Source of the DNA: Hyphomicrobium sp.
Lineage (GTDB): Bacteria > Pseudomonadota > Alphaproteobacteria > Rhizobiales > Hyphomicrobiaceae
DNA length: 64,000 bases
Direction of reading: 5' to 3'
NCBI GenBank assembly: GCA_030148425.1
Contig: JASBTM010000001.1
Coordinates: forward strand, 62,001 to 126,000
Shown here: positions 6,510 to 17,959 of the stretch, piece after piece
Numbering within the stretch: the first letter of the stretch is position 1
How the letters are laid out: each line of letters starts with the position of its first letter
The notes under the pieces: generated by a model
The model's input: the letters and a program-made list of their open reading frames with translations, nothing else
The model's database searches: none
What the model was told of the DNA's origin: nothing
Made by a program: the position numbers and the translations under genes

Positions 6510-7727
6510 TCAGCCTTTATTCGGCTTCGTTGGCCCGACCGACGTCGAAGGAGCGTTAGCCGGGTTCGGCTTTTCCTTGACGTTCACTTTATCGCCGTTG
6601 GAGACGCCGTCCGGAGGGCTTTCGATGATGCGATCTTCGGGAGCAAGGCCAGACGCAACCTCGACCGTCGCGCCGCGATCGCGGCCGATCGTGATTGGCT
6701 TCAACGTAATTTTTTCCTCGGTGTCGACGGTCGCAACGCGCAGGCCCGATTTGTCGAACAGAATGGCGCTCGCCGGGATGACCAGAACGTCGTGCTTGTT
6801 GCCGACCGTCAGATGCACACTGGCGTATGCGCCCGGCATCAACTCTCCGGCGGCATTGTCGACGATCAGCTGCATCCGCGTTGTGCCAGATGCGACATCG
6901 ACCGCGCCGGAAGACGCTTCGACCTTCGCTGCGTACTTTTTACCCGGGCGCTCGGGCACAGTGAGGATGCCGACGGTCCCCGTCGGAATCATCGGGACGT
7001 AAATCTGAGGAACGTTGACGTAGAGCCGCAGCTTGTGGACGTCGGCGACGACGAACATTTCGGCGCCACTTGAGCTGCCGGTGTTGATCAGGTTGCCGAC
7101 GTCGGTGTTGCGGACCGTTACGATGCCGTCGAAGGGAGCGACGATGCGCTTGTATTCGGTCAGCGCCTTCAGGCGATCGAGGTTCGCCTGTCCCGATTTT
7201 ACGAGTGCGTTCTTGGCGTCAAGGTCGGCCTTCTTCTCGTCGGCTGCCTGATGCGTGACGTAGCTGCTTGGCAGCAGCGCCTGATAGCGCTGGTTGGTGA
7301 CGTCGGCGAGCGCGGCATTTGCCTTGGCGTTGGTTAGATCCGATTCCGCCTGCGAATACTGCTGATCGAGATCTGGGGCGTCGATCGTCGCCAGGACGTC
7401 GCCGGTCTTCACGTGCGAGCCGATGTCGACGTTGCGGGACGCGACGTAGCCGTTGACGCGTGCGAATAACGCGGCCTGGTAATAGGCATCGAGACGGCCG
7501 GGCAGGTCGAGGACGCCGACACTCTGTTCTACTGCCGGAGGCGCCACGGAAACAGTCGGGACGGCTCGCTCTGCAGCTTTGTTTTTCAGTTGTGCGACGC
7601 TCTGCTGGCGGCTTTCAATTCCAACAAACGCAAGAGCGGCGGCGCCGCCGATGAATATCACCGTCGCCAAAGGCATCTTCCAACGCGACCGCTGCCGCGG
7701 CTGGTCGGGTGGCGATTCAGGCAGCAT
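6510..7727 (-). CDS. RND efflux periplasmic adaptor (HlyD/MFP family)
   Basis: 405 residues. An N-terminal cytoplasmic basic stretch and one transmembrane anchor (ATVIFIGGAAALAFVGI) are followed by a barrel-sandwich lipoyl half (GRLDAYYQAALFARVNGYVA), a helical hairpin (about 115-185), the second lipoyl half (KRIVAPFDGIVTVRNTDVG), a beta-barrel and a membrane-proximal domain. This is the standard MexA/AcrA layout, bridging the RND pump to an outer-membrane channel. The ATG at 7727 has GGTGGAG upstream. It overlaps the pump gene by 11 bases, so the two are translationally coupled. No TolC-type gene is adjacent. Confidence 0.9.
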   Translation of the reverse strand: MLPESPPDQPRQRSRWKMPLATVIFIGGAAALAFVGIESRQQSVAQLKNKAAERAVPTVSVAPPAVEQSVGVLDLPGRLDAYYQAALFARVNGYVASRNVDIGSHVKTGDVLATIDAPDLDQQYSQAESDLTNAKANAALADVTNQRYQALLPSSYVTHQAADEKKADLDAKNALVKSGQANLDRLKALTEYKRIVAPFDGIVTVRNTDVGNLINTGSSSGAEMFVVADVHKLRLYVNVPQIYVPMIPTGTVGILTVPERPGKKYAAKVEASSGAVDVASGTTRMQLIVDNAAGELMPGAYASVHLTVGNKHDVLVIPASAILFDKSGLRVATVDTEEKITLKPITIGRDRGATVEVASGLAPEDRIIESPPDGVSNGDKVNVKEKPNPANAPSTSVGPTKPNKG

Positions 7728-10700
7728 GGAGTTCTCCACCAGGGATTGAACCTTTCGGCGTTGAAGATTTGGCAGCCTTACGCTTGTGCATCAGGCTGAA
7801 AATAACTGGCACGATGAAGAGCGTTGCTGTGGTTGCGAAAATCAGGCCGCCGATGACCGCCCGGCCGAGCGGGGCGTTCTGCTCGCCACCTTCGCCGAGA
7901 CCCAACGCCATCGGTCCCATACCGATGACCATCGCGAGAGCTGTCATCAAGACGGGGCGAATACGGACGAAGCCCGATTCAAGTGCTGCGAGAATGGGAT
8001 CACCGTGCTCGTCGAGCCGCTCACGGGCGAAGCTGACGACGAGCACCGCGTTGGCGGTCGCCACGCCCATACACATGATGGCACCAGTAAGCGCCGGGAC
8101 GGACAGCGTTGTTCCAGTGAGGAAAAGCATCCAAATGATCCCGACCAGCGCCGCGGGGAGCGCCATGATGATAACCAGCGGGTCGCCCCAGGATTGGAAG
8201 TTGACGACGATCAAAAGGTATATAAGCACGATTGCGCCGAGGAGCCCGAACAACATTCCGGCATAGGCGCTATTCATCGTCTTGACCTGACCCAAGAGGA
8301 CGGCACTTCCGCCCTTAGGAAGCTCGGACTTCGTGGCATCGACGATTTGCTGAATATCCGCTGCCACGGCGCCGATGTCGCGTCCTTCGGTCGTCGTCAG
8401 GATCTGCACCATCGACTGGATGTCATACTGCGAAATGACGGCGTTGGTGGTTGAACGATCGAAGTTGGCGACGGCGCCCAGGATTTGCGAGGCTGGCGCG
8501 CCGCTCGCGGTAATCGGCAGGTTTTGCAGGGCGGCAAGCGAATCCAGCCGGTATTGCGGGGTCTGGATGACGATGGGGTATGAAACCCCGTTCTTGGGGT
8601 TGAGCCAGTATGTCGGGTTTACCTGGCTGGTGCCCGCGAGACTCGTCGCGAGGCTCTGCGTCACGTCCTTTTCCGTCACGCCGACGTACTGAGCGCGGGA
8701 GCGGTCGACGTTGACCTTGAAGCCAGGATTGTTACGCGATTGCTGGATGCGCGCGTCGGCGACGCCTGGGATCAGTTTGATCTTTCGTAAAAGATTCTGG
8801 GCGTAGTCGAACGAGGCGTTGAGATTGGGTCCGCGAATCTGAAGATCGATTGGAGTCGGGGCGCCAAAATTCAAAATCTGGCTGACGATGTCCGCGGGTA
8901 GGAACGAGAACGTTGCGGATGGGAATTGCTTCGGCAGCTCGTCCCGCAGTTCCCGGACATATTCGGCCGTCGGCCGGTGGCCATGGTTAAGTGCGATTTG
9001 AATGTCGCCGTCCTGGGCGCCGATCGTGCCGGTGTTGTTATACGCGGTATTGATACCGCTGATCGGCAAGCCGATGTTGTCGACCATCGCGGACAGATCC
9101 TCAGGCGCGATGATATCGCGGATGACGTCTTGGATCTTCGCAAATTCGTTCGCGCTTTCCTCGACCCGCGTTCCAATCGCAAGGCGGACGTGCATCAGAA
9201 TCTGACCTGAATCGACGGCCGGAAAAAAGTTACGGCCGAGAAAGGGCGCAAGGCATGCGGATGCGGCGATGAAACCGAACGAGACAAAAAGGACGATTGC
9301 GCGGTGGTTCAGAGCGCTCTCGAGAATGTTGCGATAAGCAACGCGGAAACTCTCGAAGCCGTGCTCGAAGCCGCGCTGGAAGAGCACGAAGGGATTGCGC
9401 GTCGGCCGTTTGTGAGCGTCGTGATCGTGAGGCTTCAGAAGAAACATGGCCATCGTCGGGACCAGCGTCCGCGACAGGATGAACGACGAGACCATCGCGA
9501 ACATGACCGCTTCCGCCATCGGCACGAAGAGGAAACGGGCAATGCCAGTCAGGAAGAACATCGGGACGAACACGATGCAGATGCAGAGCATCGAAACGAA
9601 GGCGGGCGTCGCGATCTGATCGGCGCCGTCCAGGATCGCCGTTTCGACGTCTTTCCCCTGTTCCAGATGATAATTGATGTTCTCGATCGTAACGGTCGCT
9701 TCGTCCACGAGGATGCCGACAGCAAGCGCGAGGCCGCCAAGCGTCATGATGTTCAGGGTTTCGCCGAGCGCGGAGAGCATCGCGATCGACGACAACACGG
9801 CAAGCGGAATGGACGTTGCGATGATGATCGTCGAGCGCATGCTGCCGAGGAAGAGCAGGATCATCACGCTTGTCAGCGCCGCCGCGAGGACGCCTTCGTG
9901 GATGACGTTTTCAACTGCCGCCCGGACGAAGATCGACTGATCGCCAAGGAACGATATCGTCAGAGCATCAGGCAGGCCGGGCTTGATCTCGTCGACCTTG
10001 TCCTTGATGCCCTGAATGATGTCGAGTGTAGAAACCGCGCCATTTTTCAGCACGGATAGCAGCACAGAACGGTTGCCGTTGACGTGGACGATGTTCTGCT
10101 GCGGCGGGTTGCCGTCGCGAACATGAGCAACGTCGCGGATGTAGACCATCGCGCCGTTGACGGCCTTGATCGGCAGGTCTCCCAACGCGTCGATATCCGA
10201 CGGCGCGTTGTTGAGCTGCATCGTGTATTCGGTCGCGCCGATCTTCTGCGTGCCGACGGGATTGATCAGGTTCTGGGCGGCGAAGGCGTTCTGAACATCC
10301 TGCGCGGAAAGGCCTTTCGCGTGAAGCGCCGTTGTGTCGAGATCGATCTGAATCTGGCGGGTTTTGCCGCCATACGGATAAGGCACGGCGGCGCCCGGCA
10401 CGGTTACGAGGCGAACGCGGACCATGTTCATGCCGAGGTCGGACAGATTCTGTTCTGTCATACCGTCGCCGCTGAGTGCCAATTGCAGGATCGGCACCGT
10501 CGAAGCGCTGTAGTTCAGGATCAACGGCGGGGTCGCGCCCGGCGGCATCTGCTTCAGCAGTGTTTGCGAAATCGCCGTTACCTGAGCGTTCGCAACGCTG
10601 ATGTCGACCGACGGCTGGAAGAAGATCTTGACGACGCCGATGCCATTATAAGAGTTCGCTTCGATGTGCTCGATGTCGTTGACGGTCGTTGTCAGCGCGC

Positions 10701-10908
10701 GCTCGAAGGGCGTAACGATGCGGCCAGAAAGCTCATCGGGTGGGAGACCCGTGTACTGCCACACCGTTGCGATGACGGGGATGCGAATGTCGGGAAAGAT
10801 GTCGATCGGCGTCCTGACAGCAGCAAGGCCACCGGCAATAAGGATCAGCAGCGCAAGCACAACGAATGTGTACGGCAACCGCAGCGCGATGCGCACGAGT
10901 GCAGCCAT
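7717..10908 (-). CDS. RND-family efflux permease
   Basis: 1063 residues, full length for the AcrB-like family. TM1 lies near residues 13-30, a large periplasmic loop follows, then the TM2-TM6 block including LGGLALAVGILVDEATVTIE. The usual proton-relay pair of Asp residues in TM4 (DD in AcrB) is here D-E. A second periplasmic loop and TM8-TM12 end near residue 1045. The protein drives substrate efflux by proton antiport; the substrate cannot be read from sequence. It is first in an operon with the adaptor and is divergent from a LysR gene that probably controls it. Confidence 0.9.
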   Translation of the reverse strand: MAALVRIALRLPYTFVVLALLILIAGGLAAVRTPIDIFPDIRIPVIATVWQYTGLPPDELSGRIVTPFERALTTTVNDIEHIEANSYNGIGVVKIFFQPSVDISVANAQVTAISQTLLKQMPPGATPPLILNYSASTVPILQLALSGDGMTEQNLSDLGMNMVRVRLVTVPGAAVPYPYGGKTRQIQIDLDTTALHAKGLSAQDVQNAFAAQNLINPVGTQKIGATEYTMQLNNAPSDIDALGDLPIKAVNGAMVYIRDVAHVRDGNPPQQNIVHVNGNRSVLLSVLKNGAVSTLDIIQGIKDKVDEIKPGLPDALTISFLGDQSIFVRAAVENVIHEGVLAAALTSVMILLFLGSMRSTIIIATSIPLAVLSSIAMLSALGETLNIMTLGGLALAVGILVDEATVTIENINYHLEQGKDVETAILDGADQIATPAFVSMLCICIVFVPMFFLTGIARFLFVPMAEAVMFAMVSSFILSRTLVPTMAMFLLKPHDHDAHKRPTRNPFVLFQRGFEHGFESFRVAYRNILESALNHRAIVLFVSFGFIAASACLAPFLGRNFFPAVDSGQILMHVRLAIGTRVEESANEFAKIQDVIRDIIAPEDLSAMVDNIGLPISGINTAYNNTGTIGAQDGDIQIALNHGHRPTAEYVRELRDELPKQFPSATFSFLPADIVSQILNFGAPTPIDLQIRGPNLNASFDYAQNLLRKIKLIPGVADARIQQSRNNPGFKVNVDRSRAQYVGVTEKDVTQSLATSLAGTSQVNPTYWLNPKNGVSYPIVIQTPQYRLDSLAALQNLPITASGAPASQILGAVANFDRSTTNAVISQYDIQSMVQILTTTEGRDIGAVAADIQQIVDATKSELPKGGSAVLLGQVKTMNSAYAGMLFGLLGAIVLIYLLIVVNFQSWGDPLVIIMALPAALVGIIWMLFLTGTTLSVPALTGAIMCMGVATANAVLVVSFARERLDEHGDPILAALESGFVRIRPVLMTALAMVIGMGPMALGLGEGGEQNAPLGRAVIGGLIFATTATLFIVPVIFSLMHKRKAAKSSTPKGSIPGGELHAA

Positions 10909-11184: not shown

Positions 11185-12108
11185 ATGGATTTGAAGCAGC
11201 TTGAGCATTTCGTTGCAGCCGCGGAAGAACAGCATTTCACGCGTGCCGCACGGAAAATGAACATAGTTCAGTCTGGTTTGTCCGCGTCGATCCGCGCGCT
11301 GGAACAGGAAATGGGTGCGCCGCTGTTCGTGCGCACAACGCGCCGCGTAGAGCTCACCGTCGCGGGGCGCGTGCTTTTCGACAAAGCGCAAGACATCATC
11401 GCCGGCGTCAAGGAGGCGCGGCGCGCCGTTGCGGCGATCAATGGGCTGGAAAAGGGGACCCTCAGCATTGGGACATGCGGCAGTCTCCATGCGTTTTTTG
11501 ATCTTCCTCTGTTACTCGGTGAATTTCACAAGCTTCACGGCGCCGTCGAGATCAGGCTTTGTCACGGCACAGCGACGAAGCTGATGGATAAGGTGAAGGA
11601 TGGCTCCGTGGATCTGGCCTTCTTTCCTCTCTACGAGAAGAGCCGCGAGATCGTCACCATTCCGATCGCGTCCGACACGCTGATCATCGCCTGCCCTGCG
11701 GGGCACCCCCTCGAGGGACGGCAGAATGTAGCTCTTGAAAGCCTGGCAGACGAAACCTTCGTCGATTTCCAACCCGACAAGGGGACGCGGCGGATGGTCG
11801 ACCGGGCCTTCGGCGCCCTGAACATTTCGCGGCGGACCGTCCTTGAGGTTGGAGACGTCCAGGTGCTCCTCGACCTTGTCGCGCGGGGCTTCGGCATCGC
11901 TCTCGTTCCGAAGACATTCGCATGCGCGCGTTCGACCACTTCGGCATCGCCGAAAATGGGGACGGCGACGCTCAAAAGGCCGGCGATCCAGTGGGATCTC
12001 GTGGCGGCTTTGAATGGGCGTGTGGGCGCCGCGCAGTCGCGCAATCCGGCTGTCGCGGCATTTACAAAGCTTCTCGACACCATCCGGAGCGATATCGTCG
12101 CCGCGTGA
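11185..12108 (+). CDS. LysR-family transcriptional regulator
   Basis: 307 residues. Residues 1-60 form the winged helix-turn-helix (LKQLEHFVAAAEEQHFTRAA ... LFVRTTRRVELTVAG), followed by the linker helix and a type-2 periplasmic-binding effector domain (about 90-300). It is divergently arranged from the RND efflux operon, the classic position for a LysR activator or repressor of the neighbour. Its stop is 3 bases from the stop of the convergent channel gene. The effector is unknown. Confidence 0.9.
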   Translation: MDLKQLEHFVAAAEEQHFTRAARKMNIVQSGLSASIRALEQEMGAPLFVRTTRRVELTVAGRVLFDKAQDIIAGVKEARRAVAAINGLEKGTLSIGTCGSLHAFFDLPLLLGEFHKLHGAVEIRLCHGTATKLMDKVKDGSVDLAFFPLYEKSREIVTIPIASDTLIIACPAGHPLEGRQNVALESLADETFVDFQPDKGTRRMVDRAFGALNISRRTVLEVGDVQVLLDLVARGFGIALVPKTFACARSTTSASPKMGTATLKRPAIQWDLVAALNGRVGAAQSRNPAVAAFTKLLDTIRSDIVAA

Positions 12109-12111
12109 CCC

Positions 12112-14415
12112 TCAAGCGGTGCTTGCCAGATAGACGTAATACGCCATCACTCCAGCCATTGCGGGAACGAGCGCAATGTGCAGGAAGGCCAGCGATTTCC
12201 TGAGCCATCCAATCGGCTCGATGCGTCTGTTCACGCGTGCGATCGTGATCGCGATGATGATGCTCAATACGAGATAGGTGAAGAGGAACAACCTGTCGGA
12301 CAGCGTTTCGATATTGGCGTCGAGCTTTGGTAGTGCGAGATAGAGCGCGACGGCCGAGAGAAGCGCTGTCACCTGTATCGTCACGATCGCTTCGAAATGA
12401 TGCGTGGAGATAAAGATCGACAGATAGGCGATAAAGAGGATGAATCCCAACGGCACGACGACGCGAAGAAAGTAGTCGGTTGTTTGACGTTTCATGAGCC
12501 AGACGAAGCTTGCCTTGTAGAAGGGCACGACACTCGGTTCGAGTGTTTGGGCGTCCACGGTCCGGACGAAATCTTCGTCGAAGCTGACATATTGATCCTT
12601 CGGATCCCAGCCGTCGACGCTGACGGATTTATCGCGGAGGTTTCGGGGCGGCGGCTGCACGATGAATGCGGCGCTACCGTGCTTTGGCTGGATGTCGATC
12701 GAGAACCTTTGCGTATCGAACGGATAATTGCGCAGGTTGGGCGAATACAGGAATTTGCCTGTCACCTGATAGATTTTCATGTGGTCGGGATAGGCATCGC
12801 TTTTGCCGCCGTCGTGAATCGGCCTGATCGTGATCTCGCGACTATTCGAGCCTGGATCCAAGTAGGCGTTTGAGAATTCAATCTGATCGATCGACGCGCC
12901 GTTCTTGTCGTTCATCGATAGGTAGAAGTCGGCGAGGAACGTCTGGTCGTTGTCGTCGATGCGGTCGGCGTGGATCAGGTCGATGTCGGCGTAGAGCGTA
13001 TCTATTCGGCGGATAGCGTCGTTGCGAAGGCGTAGAAACTGCACCGGTGCGAGCTGCGGCTGGCCGACGCCGTGCGGCAGCGTCACGAGCAGCGGCGCAC
13101 GCGCGGCTGCGCGCGACGATGGGCGGAACGACCAGTCGCCGAAGCGGCCTTTGAACATGCCTTTGCCGGCGGCGTAGGTCGTGCCGAGTTCGGTCACGAT
13201 GAAATCGCGGAGGTCGGTGATGCTTGCGGATGCAGGAGCGGAGCGCGCGGCGTCAGCGATGAGACGGATCATGTCCGCGTAACGCATGCCAGTTTGCAGC
13301 GCTCGCATGTTGTCGGCGTTCAACGGGTCGGGTGGGACGTCGTCGTCGCGAACCTTGCAGGTGCCGTCCTTCCAGCCGGGCGCGGCATCGTTCTTCTCGC
13401 CCTGGAAAACCCAGTATTCGGGATGGATCGACGTCAGCAGCAAATCGCGTAGCCGTTCGCTGTAGACTTCGGGAAAGCCGTCCCAGGCAAGCTGATAGAC
13501 ATCGTTGGGATAGATGCTGCCGCCTGATTTCGAGACAAGCGTTTCGAGGCGTCCCGTTGCAAACATCGGCGGTGTGAAGCCCGCGGCCTTGAATTGGCTC
13601 AGGACGTCATTTCGGGCGTCGCCGCTGATGGAGAGAAAAACAATACCCGGGTTCTTCGCCTTCAAATCTTCGATCATCGCCGCGACGGCGGTTGCGTCGG
13701 GCTTGGAGTCCTTGAGTATGAGGCGATGATCCGCGACGATGGCGTTGGCGCCCAAGACCTGCTTAAGCGCATCCCCGAGGTTGCCGCTCGCAACATTGTC
13801 CTGCTCACCGACGAATGCCACATGGTCGAACTTCATTTCTTTGAGGAACGCGGCGATGACAGGCATCCGCTCTTCATCTTCCGAAGGGCGCGTCGTGAAA
13901 ACCGATGGGTAGTCCGCAATTATTTTCGAAACCGAAATGTCGGAAATAAAGGGGATGTTGGCCGCTTTGAGATTCTTGCTGCTTGCATCGAAGGCCGCTT
14001 TTGCGCGTGTTGCGTTCATCATTCCGACCATCGCGATCGTCTGCGGATCGGCGACGGCGGACGAAAGATTTGCAGCGGCTTTCTGCGGATCACGCTTGTC
14101 GTCGAGCACGTTGACTATGAGTTGTCGTCCGGCGATGCCGCCCGTGCGATTGATGAAATTCTGAGACAGCGACGCGATTCGCTTGATCGCCGTTATCAGT
14201 CCGCTGTCGTAGCAGTCATCGCTTTTCGAGGTGGCGAAAATGGGCAAGACGACGGGTGGCCTTTGTGCCGCTTCCGCGTCTTCTGCGGCCTGTACCGCAG
14301 CGGGCGCGCTTGGTCCAACGCACAGCACCGCCAGCGTTGTGGCAGCTGCCGCAAGGCGCCGCACCGCATTTCGCGAGAATAGCCCCGGCGAAAGTTTGAA
14401 CCCCGCAAATGTCAC
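12112..14415 (-). CDS. periplasmic binding protein fused to a pentameric ligand-gated ion channel
   Basis: 767 residues from a GTG start with GGGTGGGA upstream. Residues 1-44 are a signal peptide. Residues about 54-440 form a type-1 periplasmic binding fold of the Leu/Ile/Val-binding (ABC substrate-binding) class, e.g. IASLSQNFINRTGGIAGRQL and VAFVGEQDNVASGNLG. Residues about 455-645 match a pLGIC extracellular domain: IDLIHADRIDDNDQTFLADF and NYPFDTQRFSIDIQP (564-569 is the hallmark YPFDTQ of the Cys/Pro-loop). Four helices follow: M1 about 648-670 (VVVPLGFILFIAYLSIFIS, with the M1 Pro), M2 674-697, M3 706-727, M4 740-764, close in pattern to GLIC. It should be an inner-membrane cation or anion channel gated by a periplasmic small molecule sensed by the binding-protein module. 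Confidence 0.88.
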   Translation of the reverse strand: MTFAGFKLSPGLFSRNAVRRLAAAATTLAVLCVGPSAPAAVQAAEDAEAAQRPPVVLPIFATSKSDDCYDSGLITAIKRIASLSQNFINRTGGIAGRQLIVNVLDDKRDPQKAAANLSSAVADPQTIAMVGMMNATRAKAAFDASSKNLKAANIPFISDISVSKIIADYPSVFTTRPSEDEERMPVIAAFLKEMKFDHVAFVGEQDNVASGNLGDALKQVLGANAIVADHRLILKDSKPDATAVAAMIEDLKAKNPGIVFLSISGDARNDVLSQFKAAGFTPPMFATGRLETLVSKSGGSIYPNDVYQLAWDGFPEVYSERLRDLLLTSIHPEYWVFQGEKNDAAPGWKDGTCKVRDDDVPPDPLNADNMRALQTGMRYADMIRLIADAARSAPASASITDLRDFIVTELGTTYAAGKGMFKGRFGDWSFRPSSRAAARAPLLVTLPHGVGQPQLAPVQFLRLRNDAIRRIDTLYADIDLIHADRIDDNDQTFLADFYLSMNDKNGASIDQIEFSNAYLDPGSNSREITIRPIHDGGKSDAYPDHMKIYQVTGKFLYSPNLRNYPFDTQRFSIDIQPKHGSAAFIVQPPPRNLRDKSVSVDGWDPKDQYVSFDEDFVRTVDAQTLEPSVVPFYKASFVWLMKRQTTDYFLRVVVPLGFILFIAYLSIFISTHHFEAIVTIQVTALLSAVALYLALPKLDANIETLSDRLFLFTYLVLSIIIAITIARVNRRIEPIGWLRKSLAFLHIALVPAMAGVMAYYVYLASTA

Positions 14416-14564: not shown

Positions 14565-15401
14565 CTAACCGGGCATCGATTTGGCGAGAAGTCCGGACAG
14601 GATCCAGCCTTGAAGGTGCTGGGCGGCACGCAACGGGGCAGTCTCAGGATCGTCGTAAACGGCGATAAGCTCGCAGAGACGGCCGAACGGGATGCCATTG
14701 GAGGCCTCGTTCCACATCATCGCCTCCTCGTCCGACATGCGGCGTACTTTTGGAACCGTCTCGTGGCGCCAGATGATCACGCATTCGGGCGCGGAGCGAA
14801 GTTCGACAGAAGGCGGGGGCTGCTCATTCTTAAGCGTGAGCCACAGGGCGTGCGCGTTCGTCGTAAAGGCCAGGCTATGCGCCGACGGATGAGCGTTGAA
14901 AACGAGGTCTGACCAACTTTGGGGAGGAATTGCGGCGAGATCCGATAATTCCAGGGCGGGGACGTCTGGAGCATCGAACGCGTCATTCAGCGCACGCTCC
15001 AGGGCGGCGAGTTCCGCGAGGTGCGGTGCTCCCTGTTGCGATTGCGATAGGTGGTCCGGCAAGCGATGTGCAAACCAGCGTGCGTTTGGGTGTCGGGAGG
15101 GCTCAGCGACAATATAAGCCTTCGCGAGTTCGGCAAACGCGTCGTCGCCCAAGTGCCGGTGCAGAAGAGGGTGTTCGCTGCGAACGACTTCGATGAGTCG
15201 CGCGACATAGGCATGGCGATAAACGCCGAAGAGCACGTTTCGATTGGTGCGCGAAGTGTCGAGGATGTCCTTGAGAACGGTATCGTCACCCAACAGGATC
15301 GCACGCTGAAACGCCGCCTGCATTGCGCTGAGGCCGAGAGCGGGACCTTCTCCGTTTGGCTCTTGCGAGACTGTTTCTTTAGGCGAGACGACGGTCGGCA
15401 T
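14565..15401 (-). CDS. bufC: DUF2063 partner protein of the MNIO enzyme (BufC-like)
   Basis: 278 residues from the ATG at 15401; the start is not backed by a strong ribosome binding site. Residues about 27-120 fit the DUF2063 domain (AMQAAFQRAILLGDD, NVLFGVYRHAYVARLIEVV, HRHLGDDAFAELAKAYI). A second alpha/beta C-terminal half follows. DUF2063 proteins accompany DUF692/MNIO enzymes and are thought to deliver the precursor peptide to the oxidase. It lies 19 bases downstream of the MNIO gene in the same operon and is its last gene; the ion-channel gene starts 149 bases further on. Confidence 0.82.
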   Translation of the reverse strand: MPTVVSPKETVSQEPNGEGPALGLSAMQAAFQRAILLGDDTVLKDILDTSRTNRNVLFGVYRHAYVARLIEVVRSEHPLLHRHLGDDAFAELAKAYIVAEPSRHPNARWFAHRLPDHLSQSQQGAPHLAELAALERALNDAFDAPDVPALELSDLAAIPPQSWSDLVFNAHPSAHSLAFTTNAHALWLTLKNEQPPPSVELRSAPECVIIWRHETVPKVRRMSDEEAMMWNEASNGIPFGRLCELIAVYDDPETAPLRAAQHLQGWILSGLLAKSMPG

Positions 15402-15420
15402 TTGTATATCGCTGTCCGGA

Positions 15421-16281
15421 TTAGGATTGCGAGAACAGGTCTTCGGCAAGTAGACGCGCTTTTTCAAGTTCTTCCAGCATCGTGGGCAACGGGGGAATAT
15501 CATCATCGCGCTCGATGATCGTAGAGACCGGGCCGAAGCGTTTCAGTGCGGCTTGATAGAGCGTCCAGACTTCATCGCAGACCATCGCATCATGCGTATC
15601 GATGATATGGGTCATGTTGTGTTCGTGTCCCGCGAGATGGAATTGGACGACGCGATCCGACGGTATGCCGGCGATGAATTCGTAAGGGTCGTATTCGTGG
15701 TTGAACGCGCTGACGAAGACGTTATTCACGTCGAAAACCAGCCAGCAGCCGGTCCGCTTTGTCATCTCGGCGATGAATTCCCACTCCGGCATTTCGGAAT
15801 TTCGGAATTGGACGTAGGTCGAGACGTTCTCGAGCGCCAACGGACGTTTGAGATGGTCTTGCACATGCTGGATGCGCGCAACGACATGGTCGAGCGCTTC
15901 GCGCGTGTAGGGGAAGGGCAGAAGGTCGTGCAGGTTTACGCCGTGAACTCCTGTCCAGCAGAGATGATCGGAGACGAAAACCGGATCGGTCCGATCTGCG
16001 AGCGTCTTTAAATCTTTGAGATAGTCGACATCAAACGGCGCGGTTGATGCGATCGACAGCGAGACGCCGTGCATCACGATTGGATAGCGCGCGCGGATCT
16101 GATCGAGAATGCGCAGTGGCTGGCCGCCCGGAACCATGTAGTTTTCGGAGATAACCTCAAACCACTCGATGTTGGGATTGCCATTTAGGATGTCGGCGTA
16201 ATGCTGCGCGCGCAATCCTAATCCAAACCCAAGGTAACGGGGCTTGCCATCAGGAAATTTCGCCTTCGTGTCCGCGAGCAT
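15421..16281 (-). CDS. bufB: MNIO (DUF692) multinuclear iron oxidase, peptide-modifying (BufB-like)
   Basis: 286 residues from an ATG with GAGGAG upstream (a TTG two codons earlier is less likely). TIM-barrel DUF692 motifs are intact: RYLGFGLGLRAQHY, WFEVISENYM, VMHGVSLSI, FVSDHLCWTG, LALENVSTYV, LVFDVNNVFVSAFNH, QFHLAGH and DTHDAMVCDEVW, which carry the His, Asp and Glu ligands of the iron centre. Family members (MbnB, BufB, TglH) oxidise cysteines of ribosomal peptides to thiazole, oxazolone or thiooxazole products. Its position below a Cys-rich precursor gene makes that peptide the likely substrate. Confidence 0.9.
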   Translation of the reverse strand: MLADTKAKFPDGKPRYLGFGLGLRAQHYADILNGNPNIEWFEVISENYMVPGGQPLRILDQIRARYPIVMHGVSLSIASTAPFDVDYLKDLKTLADRTDPVFVSDHLCWTGVHGVNLHDLLPFPYTREALDHVVARIQHVQDHLKRPLALENVSTYVQFRNSEMPEWEFIAEMTKRTGCWLVFDVNNVFVSAFNHEYDPYEFIAGIPSDRVVQFHLAGHEHNMTHIIDTHDAMVCDEVWTLYQAALKRFGPVSTIIERDDDIPPLPTMLEELEKARLLAEDLFSQS

Positions 16282-16296
16282 TGCCAACTCCTCGTT

Positions 16297-17016
16297 TCAA
16301 AATCGTGTGGTCAGCCCGGTCAGCCAAGCCGGTGAAATTGATACGATCTGCGTTTCGAGCGTCTTGTCGAAGCCGGTCAGAATAGCGAGACCCGTCAAGA
16401 TCAAAACGCCGCCGAGTACATATTTTCCGCCTGAGCCCGCCGACGCCAGCGTGTCCCGCCAGCGGTTTAAAATTTCGCGGGACAGGGCGCCGAGGATCAA
16501 AAGCGGCACGACGGCCCCAAGTCCGAATGACAGCATTGTCAATGCCACTTGGCCGAGATCTTTGCCCTGGGCCGCTAGCAGCGAGGCAGCGCCGAGCGTC
16601 GGGCCGACGCACGGGCTCCATACCGCTCCGAGGACGATGCCGACGCCGAATTGTCCAAGGACGCCAGGGCCTGCATACGTGCCGAGGGCTTGATCGGCCC
16701 AATTCGAAACCGGCCCTGCCGCAACGGCGAAACGTTGCTGTAAAGCAGGAACGACCAGGACGGTGCCGATCACGATCAAAAGCGACGCCGCGACGAAGCG
16801 GAAAAATCCACCATCGAGGCCCACGGCAAATCCGATGGTGGCGACGAACAGGCTCAATCCCACGAAGGATATTGCGACACCGGCAGACAAGGCGAACGGT
16901 CCGTATCGGTGCGCGGATGCGGCCGTCGCCATGACGATCGGGATGAGCGGAAGGACGCATGGCGACAATACGGAAAGGACGCCCGCAATGAATGCCAGTC
17001 CGGAAGATTCGAGCAT
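16297..17016 (-). CDS. ccdA: CcdA-family transmembrane thiol-reductant transporter
   Basis: 239 residues with six predicted transmembrane helices of the DsbD/CcdA type. The two conserved reactive cysteines are in SVLSPCVLPLIP (TM1) and VWSPCVGPTLG (TM4). CcdA moves electrons from cytoplasmic thioredoxin across the inner membrane to a periplasmic thioredoxin-like partner. The gene sits 11 bases after such a partner and 15 bases before the MNIO gene. In this operon it probably serves periplasmic thiol reduction linked to the Cys-rich peptide rather than cytochrome c maturation, which is an inference. Confidence 0.88.
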   Translation of the reverse strand: MLESSGLAFIAGVLSVLSPCVLPLIPIVMATAASAHRYGPFALSAGVAISFVGLSLFVATIGFAVGLDGGFFRFVAASLLIVIGTVLVVPALQQRFAVAAGPVSNWADQALGTYAGPGVLGQFGVGIVLGAVWSPCVGPTLGAASLLAAQGKDLGQVALTMLSFGLGAVVPLLILGALSREILNRWRDTLASAGSGGKYVLGGVLILTGLAILTGFDKTLETQIVSISPAWLTGLTTRF

Positions 17017-17027
17017 CGCCGCAATCC

Positions 17028-17423
17028 TTAGAGAGATTTTTCAAGCAGGCTCGCGATAGCACTTTCATTCGTGATGCCAACGGAGCGACCGGCTTCCTTG
17101 CTGCCCTTGAAGACGATCAACGTGCTTTGCAGTTGTGCGCCAAATTTTCTCAAGACGTCTTTGCGGCTATCGAAATCGACATCGAAAATTACGAGGTCCG
17201 TGAAATGAGGATCTGCCGAAAGCTTCTCTATGATGGGTTTCTGCGCCTGGCAGGTGGGGCACCACGATGCGGAAATATCGATAAGAATGGATTTTCCTTG
17301 GGATTGAGCTGCAGCAAAATCCTTGTCGTCAAACGCTTTGCGTTCGCCTGCTGCTGCGCCGACCGCCATCAAGGCGATGATCGCCATCGCCGCACTCGCC
17401 CGCGCCAAATATTTCATCATCAT
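17028..17423 (-). CDS. periplasmic thioredoxin-like protein
   Basis: 131 residues. Residues 1-25 (MMMKYLARASAAMAIIALMA) are a signal peptide; the mature part is a thioredoxin fold with active site SWCPTCQAQKP and the cis-Pro region FGAQLQSTLIVFKG. The latter lacks an obvious TP cis-proline, which is seen as STLIV here, so its disulfide chemistry may differ. AGGAGCG precedes the ATG. It likely receives electrons from CcdA encoded next, and acts on the cysteines of the bufferin-like peptide. Confidence 0.85.
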   Translation of the reverse strand: MMMKYLARASAAMAIIALMAVGAAAGERKAFDDKDFAAAQSQGKSILIDISASWCPTCQAQKPIIEKLSADPHFTDLVIFDVDFDSRKDVLRKFGAQLQSTLIVFKGSKEAGRSVGITNESAIASLLEKSL

Positions 17424-17482
17424 GGATTTGCTCGCTCCTGAAATCCGCTCTTGCAGCCCGGGATGCTACTGACGCCGGGGAA

Positions 17483-17509
17483 AAAACGCCGCGTGAAAGC
17501 GGCGTTTTT
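17483..17509 (-). terminator. intrinsic terminator/attenuator after the precursor gene
   Basis: AAAACGCCGC / GCGGCGTTTT around a 6-base loop; on the minus strand the stem is followed directly by T6. It is 13 bases after the precursor stop and before the thioredoxin-like gene. Partial read-through would yield far more precursor than enzyme, as seen in many RiPP operons. Confidence 0.8.
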
Positions 17510-17522
17510 ACCTTTGGCCTGC

Positions 17523-17780
17523 TTATTTCGCCGGTTCGAAATGACCCGTCGTGCAGCCTTCCTTCGTCGTCTCGGTAAAGCCCTGGCCCTTGCAAGCGTT
17601 CTGGCCCTTGCAAGCGTTCGACGCGCTCTTGCAGGCGCTCTGGCCCTTGCATGCGTTGGCGCCGACGCAGTGACCTGTCGCTTCGTCGGCGAAGGCAACC
17701 GTCGACATGACGGCGTTTGCGAGCATGAGCGAGGCGGCAGCGGCGGCGAGAGCCGATCCGGACTTTACGCTGATCTTCAT
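17523..17780 (-). CDS. bufA2: bufferin-type Cys-rich RiPP precursor (BufA2-like)
   Basis: 85 residues, start ATG preceded by AAAGGGAAC. Residues 1-31 are a signal peptide (ALAAAAASLMLANAVMS, cut near AFA-DE). The mature 54 residues contain six cysteines (38, 44, 50, 57, 63, 76) in a repeated NACKGQ/SACK motif: HCVGANACKGQSACK and NACKGQNACKGQGF. This matches the BufA2 family of periplasmic metal-binding peptides made by MNIO enzymes, as I remember it; the BufA1 (DUF2282) EGKCG motif is absent. The modified peptide is expected to bind copper or a similar soft metal in the periplasm. Confidence 0.82.
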   Translation of the reverse strand: MKISVKSGSALAAAAASLMLANAVMSTVAFADEATGHCVGANACKGQSACKSASNACKGQNACKGQGFTETTKEGCTTGHFEPAK

Positions 17781-17959
17781 GGTATGTTCCCTTTGTACGG
17801 TTGTCTTTTCCACGCGTCGTTCTGTGGTCCGGCTGACCGGGCCACGCAGTAGGTTACGGGCATCTTTGCCCGGACGTTTCGGTTACCCGAAAAAAAATTG
17901 CGCAATGCGAACGGGCAGCGGTTCGGGACGGAGATCCGACAAATTATTCAGCTCGCACT

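Follow-up and report, generated by a model that had tools for sequence, protein, structure and literature searches.

A relative of nerve-receptor ion channels with a solute-binding protein on its outer end in Hyphomicrobium

Introduction

What bacterial pentameric ligand-gated ion channels (pLGICs) do for the cells that own them is, to our knowledge, largely open. One gene in the window (the whole stretch of 64,000 nucleotides of Hyphomicrobium DNA analysed here) poses the question in a specific form: it joins a type I periplasmic binding protein (PBP) to such a channel, and the question is what the binding domain may sense and what the channel may pass.

Fusions of this kind have been known since 2004, as the preliminary description of the locus had rightly noted: passages in Tasneem et al. 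(2004; PMC549065) report pLGICs with a fused PBP-I domain from two alphaproteobacteria and suggest that they serve as chemotaxis receptors. The PBP-I/ART-LGIC proteins of Magnetospirillum magnetotacticum and Bradyrhizobium japonicum, compared here by their description in those passages, resemble the window protein in carrying PBP-I, extracellular domain (ECD) and four transmembrane helices in one chain. Parts of Jaiteh et al. (2016) give such associations as known from genomes alone, and among the matches listed in our literature search, judged by title and the start of the abstract and with most subscription journals outside its reach, none was a characterised PBP-pLGIC. New here is a divergent clade that Pfam misses, near-universal in its genus, with a fixed pore of predicted cation type and a pocket that argues against an amino-acid ligand.

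Results

A binding protein and a channel in one chain

The fusion gene and its parts are as follows.

12112..14415, minus strand: PBP-I/pLGIC fusion gene, 767 aa, GTG start, stop codon at 12112-12114
14284..14415, minus strand: predicted signal peptide, residues 1-44, hydrophobic at 23-41 and then alanines (hydropathy and sequence)
13096..14256, minus strand: type I PBP domain, residues about 54-440 (Pfam match 88-300)
12481..13020, minus strand: pLGIC ECD, residues 466-645, YPFDTQ Pro-loop at 564-569 (profiles and sequence)
12115..12474, minus strand: membrane helices M1-M4, residues 648-767 (hydropathy and profile alignment)
12328..12396, minus strand: M2 pore helix, residues 674-696, with E675 at -2', T683 at 6' and L686 at 9'

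A single 767-residue protein had been claimed for 12112-14415, and the reading frame was confirmed and assigned to the minus strand, where all 767 codons are open; read on the plus strand, this frame is interrupted by stops. The sequence GGTGGGA lies four bases 5' of the GTG start. A Kyte-Doolittle scan of the protein (19-residue window, mean 1.3 or more) yields five hydrophobic segments, at 23-41, 652-670, 677-695, 710-728 and 741-759, which correspond to the predicted signal peptide, delimited from hydropathy and sequence rather than by a cleavage-site tool, and to M1-M4. Four membrane helices are thus predicted, in agreement with the preliminary description, with M2 aligning with that of GLIC, and the YPFDTQ loop sits at 564-569 as claimed.

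The N-terminal half had been described as a Leu/Ile/Val-type binding domain spanning about 54-440. Its identity as a PBP is borne out by a Pfam match to Peripla_BP_6 above the gathering score (E 4.2e-18; 66.6 bits against a cut-off of 31.7), although at residues 88-300 the match is narrower than the span proposed. The Cys-loop cysteines are absent from the ECD by sequence. The protein is a relative of the nerve-receptor ion channels with a solute-binding protein on its outer end, and the two modules share one chain, as had been suggested, the first recognised by Peripla_BP_6 and the second by the profile comparisons below.

Assignment of the C-terminal half to the pLGICs

The expectation that the C-terminal half would match pLGIC profiles held for phmmer, a 20-sequence profile and hhalign, and failed for the Pfam Neur_chan models. 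A Pfam scan of the fusion protein returns neither Neur_chan_LBD nor Neur_chan_memb at E ≤ 1, so the half lies below the Pfam cut-offs, and the NCBIfam LIC model reaches E 0.0083 (14.9 bits, cut-off 280.2). A search for PF02932 found no match in the window's own genome, nor in 14 control genomes, and is hence uninformative. A Pfam cut-off reflects how the database sets its thresholds, not the structure of a protein, and the miss is not decisive for the class.

Searched against PDB chains with phmmer, the fusion protein matches 4yeu (E 7.4e-6), whose name gives it as a Cys-loop channel combined with the proton-gated channel, and GLIC 4lmk (E 2.3e-4). The 20-sequence profile of the C-terminal half matches 4yeu (E 1.9e-7), GLIC 9lbe (E 1.1e-6; aligned over query 9-295, nearly the whole length) and 6v4a (E 1.3e-6), which we take to be DeCLIC. 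In a single hhalign comparison, the C-terminal half of the window clade matches four PBP-less pLGICs with probability 98.3 and E 1.3e-14; the one of the four that was scanned (L059) contains Neur_chan_memb at 34.7 bits against a Pfam cut-off of 28.1. Because these more sensitive profile comparisons reach GLIC and Pfam-recognised bacterial pLGICs, the assignment stands despite the Pfam miss. P565, F566 and D567 of the xPFD Pro-loop motif and P655 of M1 are each present in 31 of 31 homologues of the window clade.

Structure prediction added little. The AlphaFold model of the whole chain has a mean pLDDT of 43.9, with 90 of 767 residues at 70-90 and none higher; that of residues 466-767 has a mean of 44.1 and shows strands followed by four long helices. 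The low values of both models are probably due to a shallow input alignment (the window and seven loci, 64-84% identical). We give little weight to the Foldseek result for the second, low-pLDDT model, in which the best 50 of 526 matches (E ≤ 10) are all pLGICs at TM about 0.3, the first of them at E 3.7e-4 and TM 0.32. Because the models are unusable, our statements on cleft, pore and contacts are drawn from sequence.

A fixed pore, predicted to pass cations

The 31 homologues consist of the 24 sequences of our alignment A1 and seven more, and alignments A3 and A4 are likewise subsets. A1 holds the window and 23 of the 30 loci whose neighbourhoods were compared, omitting near-duplicates (L031, L034, L038, L039, L040) and cases at contig ends (L050, L057).

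The pore signature is conserved throughout this set. In M2, E at -2', Q at 4', T at 6', A at 7', L at 8', L at 9', A at 13', L at 14' and Y at 15' each occur in 31/31; position 2' is T in 24, A in five and G in two. E675 aligns with the Glu of the YEAN motif of GLIC by both phmmer and the profile, and the residue after it is Ala in 24/31 and Ser in 7/31, never basic; in GLIC it is Ala. GLIC (Gloeobacter, proton-gated) also has in common with the window protein the Pro-loop, the M1 proline, Glu-Ala before M2 and a short M3-M4 link. Unlike the window protein, GLIC presumably has no N-terminal accessory domain.

Since Glu stands at -2' in every homologue, a cation-selective pore is predicted. Passages in Tasneem et al. 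(2004; PMC549065) tie Glu just before M2, in the form Glu-Arg/Lys, to cation channels; the Ala or Ser that follows Glu in the window clade departs from this motif and would count against the cation-pore reading.

The gene is retained and constrained

Outside the window's own genome, 19 of the 21 genomes sampled from its genus have a homologue of full length, including that of Hyphomicrobium facile DSM 1565 (L025, G001); in one of the 19 (G013) a contig end divides it. Of the remaining two, G004 has a fragment and G005 no homologue; their completeness, 84% and 71%, is the lowest among the 21. Beyond the genus, homologues occur in 8 of 14 genomes from other genera of the family (two at contig ends) and in 3 of 24 from other families of the order. 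An order-wide sample, whose genomes partly overlap the earlier one, contains places above 400 bits in 20 of 397 genomes, the window's own included, and in a class-wide sample of 337 the own genome alone matches at E ≤ 1e-6. That genome gave a single match in the homologue search, and a search of a plasmid collection gave none.

The gene is under purifying selection. Compared with three relatives (84, 78 and 77% identical), whole-gene dN/dS is 0.066, 0.100 and 0.096, with 0.077, 0.142 and 0.127 for the PBP part, 0.020, 0.035 and 0.027 for the ECD and 0.009, 0.035 and 0.012 for M1-M3, all rough figures since dS is mostly above 1. By its sequence, the fusion gene is intact and constrained, not a chance ORF. 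Averaged over 23 relatives, identity to the window protein is 47% for the PBP, 61% for the ECD, 73% for M1-M3 and 90% for M2, a gradient by module that points to a fixed output and a faster-changing sensor. A non-conducting or degenerate receptor, to which the failure of the Pfam pLGIC models might point, is very improbable given its intact retention across the genus and an M2 that is the most conserved of the stretches measured.

Sister-type PBP-pLGICs

Searching the phylum with the pLGIC half gave matches at E ≤ 1e-6 in 23 of 349 genomes; 21 of these belong to other orders. Eight translated relatives of 707-772 aa align as PBP-pLGICs, and Pfam confirms the PBP in the three that were scanned. 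In a single hhalign comparison, this distant group aligns with the window clade in the same order from the PBP across the junction into the channel (E 3e-30). The sister set (A6) comprised 8 of the 24 places outside the order, namely those on the plus strand minus L114 and L094; 13 minus-strand places were added later, and L101, with its short frame, and L094, which carries an in-frame TGA, were left out of the sister sets throughout. L094 (G793:C198:13104-13685) is the strongest match outside the order, at E 9.6e-21.

One sister-type PBP-pLGIC lies in the same order (L139:791-4180). The gene before it on the same strand is of the NMT1_3 family, an arrangement that by analogy recalls the PBP-II neighbourhoods in passages of Tasneem et al. 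(2004; PMC549065).

Several members of the wider group vary in the channel. Ser-Arg or Pro-Arg, not Glu-Ala, precedes M2 in eight (L096, L100, L103, L105, L106, L110, L113, L117), whose selectivity may differ from that of the window clade; L095, also sister-type, has Glu there. L108 (712 aa) and L109 (651 aa) match in PBP and ECD and do not have the M2-M3 motif typical of most of the group. The PBP-less pLGICs mentioned above (L058-L061, in G033, G006, G021 and G019) are second pLGICs of 365-397 aa in four related genomes, and the gene beside them reads as what we take to be ketol-acid reductoisomerase (ilvC).

The binding cleft seems to depart from the amino-acid type

The preliminary description had proposed that an amino acid or similar ligand gates the channel. 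We compared the cleft with E. coli LivJ and LivK, which belong like the window PBP to the type I family and are soluble transporter subunits; in LivJ, S79, T102 and E226 are, we assume, the positions that hold the amino-acid head group. Two alignments were used, both with LivJ, LivK and the 31 window-clade homologues: the first added 9 sister-type sequences and 6 relatives bearing an MscS channel (last section), the second 22 and 16.

The column of S79 holds Ser in 21/31 of the window clade and Ala in 8/31, the window's A135 included; in the sister type it is Ser in 20/22. At T102 the window clade has Val in 25/31 (V162 in the window) and Thr in 1/31, set against Thr in 19/22 of the sister type and 2/16 of the MscS relatives. 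At E226 it has Gly in 29/31 (window G288) and Glu in none, against Glu in 17/22 and 0/16, respectively; the MscS relatives are thus also without the amino-acid motif of LivJ. The column of LivJ S81 is Arg in 30/31 of the window clade (window R137), and S161 occupies a cleft-equivalent column in 28/31. Window-clade counts at the S79, T102, E226 and S81 columns are identical in both alignments. The Y18 and F276 columns shifted between them, and none of the three groups keeps Y202 at its column, although Tyr stands one column later in most of the sister type.

The sister-group pocket thus looks like an amino-acid pocket and that of the window clade does not. The same difference separates L139, the same-order protein of the architecture described in 2004, which is near the amino-acid type with Ser, Thr and Asp at the three positions. 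The preliminary proposal fares badly at T102 and E226, neither of which is kept in the window clade; because the window protein is just 14.5% identical to LivJ over 330 columns (window-clade mean 14%, sister-type mean 23%), the altered columns weaken the case for an amino acid as ligand rather than exclude it. Channel opening by a Leu/Ile/Val-like amino acid bound to the PBP would fit the Peripla_BP_6 match, the Ser found in most of the clade at the S79 column and the PDB chains that the PBP half matches, mostly named Leu/Ile/Val or branched-chain binding proteins. In view of A135, V162 and G288 in the window protein itself, we judge this ligand improbable. The near-invariant R137 hints at an anionic one.

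Relative to LivJ, and unlike L139, the window-clade PBP has an extra Cys-bearing segment at about 330-370. C68 and C353 are both missing in 3/31 (L053, L056, L141); in L054 and L055 C68 is kept and column 353 is not Cys, but by eye a Cys lies one or two positions away. A C68-C353 disulfide is suggestive only.

Proposed mechanism

The reading that we favour, with a probability of roughly 0.57, is of a homopentameric cation channel in the inner membrane that a solute in the PBP cleft gates or modulates. On the predicted topology, five identical subunits would form the channel, each presenting to the periplasm a PBP-I domain of the Venus-flytrap type fused to the pLGIC ECD. The solute bound in the cleft would be small, perhaps anionic and probably something other than an alpha-amino acid; closure of the PBP lobes would act on the ECD and open or modulate the pore, and cations would then enter. 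Any physiological role is likewise a proposal.

Alternatively, the PBP may be a structural, docking or gating-speed accessory that binds no small ligand, with gating at the pLGIC domain, for example by protons or Ca2+ as in GLIC or DeCLIC. The loss of the amino-acid motif from the cleft columns and the faster change of the PBP would suit such a part. So would DeCLIC (Desulfofustis, Ca2+-sensitive), a pLGIC whose N-terminal domain is, as in the window protein, large and periplasmic, and in parts of PMC9897478 and PMC12664993 is said to affect kinetics and to bind Ca2+. However, that domain consists of two jelly-roll lobes, where the window has a PBP; passages in the former, a 2022 paper, name DeCLIC as the sole member with an extra N-terminal domain of determined structure. 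Moreover, R137 and S161 suggest a pocket that is kept but different. We regard an accessory PBP as unlikely, though worth keeping in view.

For the favoured solute-gated cation channel, retention across the genus, Hyphomicrobium facile DSM 1565 included, makes the role of a PBP-capped pLGIC testable, and the PBP domain can be produced alone and hence screened for ligands.

Gene neighbourhood

Four neighbouring features were considered.

11185..12108, plus strand: LysR-type regulator, convergent with the fusion gene; 10/13 syntenic relatives
7717..10908, minus strand: AcrB/AcrD/AcrF-family (RND) efflux pump; 13/13 syntenic relatives
6510..7739, minus strand: membrane fusion protein adjoining the RND pump; 13/13 syntenic relatives
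14565-17813, minus strand: bufferin-like set of DUF2063, MbnB/TglH/ChrH-family, DsbD-like, thioredoxin and small Cys-rich proteins

The syntenic relatives are L028-L040, 13 of the 30 neighbourhoods compared. The RND pump and the LysR regulator, considered as functional partners, are kept at 13/13 and 10/13 of these Hyphomicrobium-clade loci and at 0/17 of the others, and the association is positional only. The tested neighbours of the window are absent from those 17 neighbourhoods, several of them short contigs, where a few ORFs are common to pairs of loci (e.g. L048 and L050), one ORF of L045 resembles ORFs in seven loci, and no common partner adjoins the fusion gene. The gene set at 14565-17813, presumably a bufferin-like operon, lies just upstream on the same strand and was rejected as a partner, occupying the same place in just 3 of the 13 syntenic relatives besides the window. 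None of the neighbours points to a ligand.

The same outer domains on an MscS channel

At L114 (97-3195, plus strand, 1033 aa), a PBP and a pLGIC-type ECD are followed by an MscS channel in place of M1-M4. Such proteins, of about 900-1140 aa, occur in another class of Pseudomonadota (L114, L119, L120, L121, L123, L125, L127, L136, L137, L148-L154). Pfam finds Peripla_BP_6 and MS_channel_2nd in 9/9 and a Neur_chan domain in none of these nine. The MscS pore is a heptamer.

The middle domain matches the ECDs of the sister group, the window clade and the PBP-less pLGICs with probabilities of 98.5, 96.8 and 96.3, over 102-125 of 218 columns, all within the first two thirds. The domain has a degenerate Pro-loop, reading PFG, PYG or YGT, and matched nothing in the PDB at E ≤ 1. 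In a literature search by titles only, no mention of a PBP-ECD-MscS protein was found among the matches listed.

That the MscS relatives carry the same type of PBP and ECD suggests a portable sensing cassette on two unrelated pores, pLGIC and MscS. We tentatively extend this to a scheme, possible but short of probable, in which the cassette was re-tuned to a non-amino-acid solute in the window clade and PBP closure, not the classical inter-subunit site, would be the main input that opens the cation channel. With a second pore behind a like sensor, the MscS relatives amount to a domain swap made by nature, in which the opening of a channel by its outer domain could be studied.

In that class, 35 of 48 genomes match the middle domain at E ≤ 1e-5, with pLGIC and MscS forms mixed. 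Among nine further loci from seven families, one (L156) meets a contig end before the MscS part, and eight match all three parts by BLASTP, including L155, which at a contig start holds just the end of the PBP.
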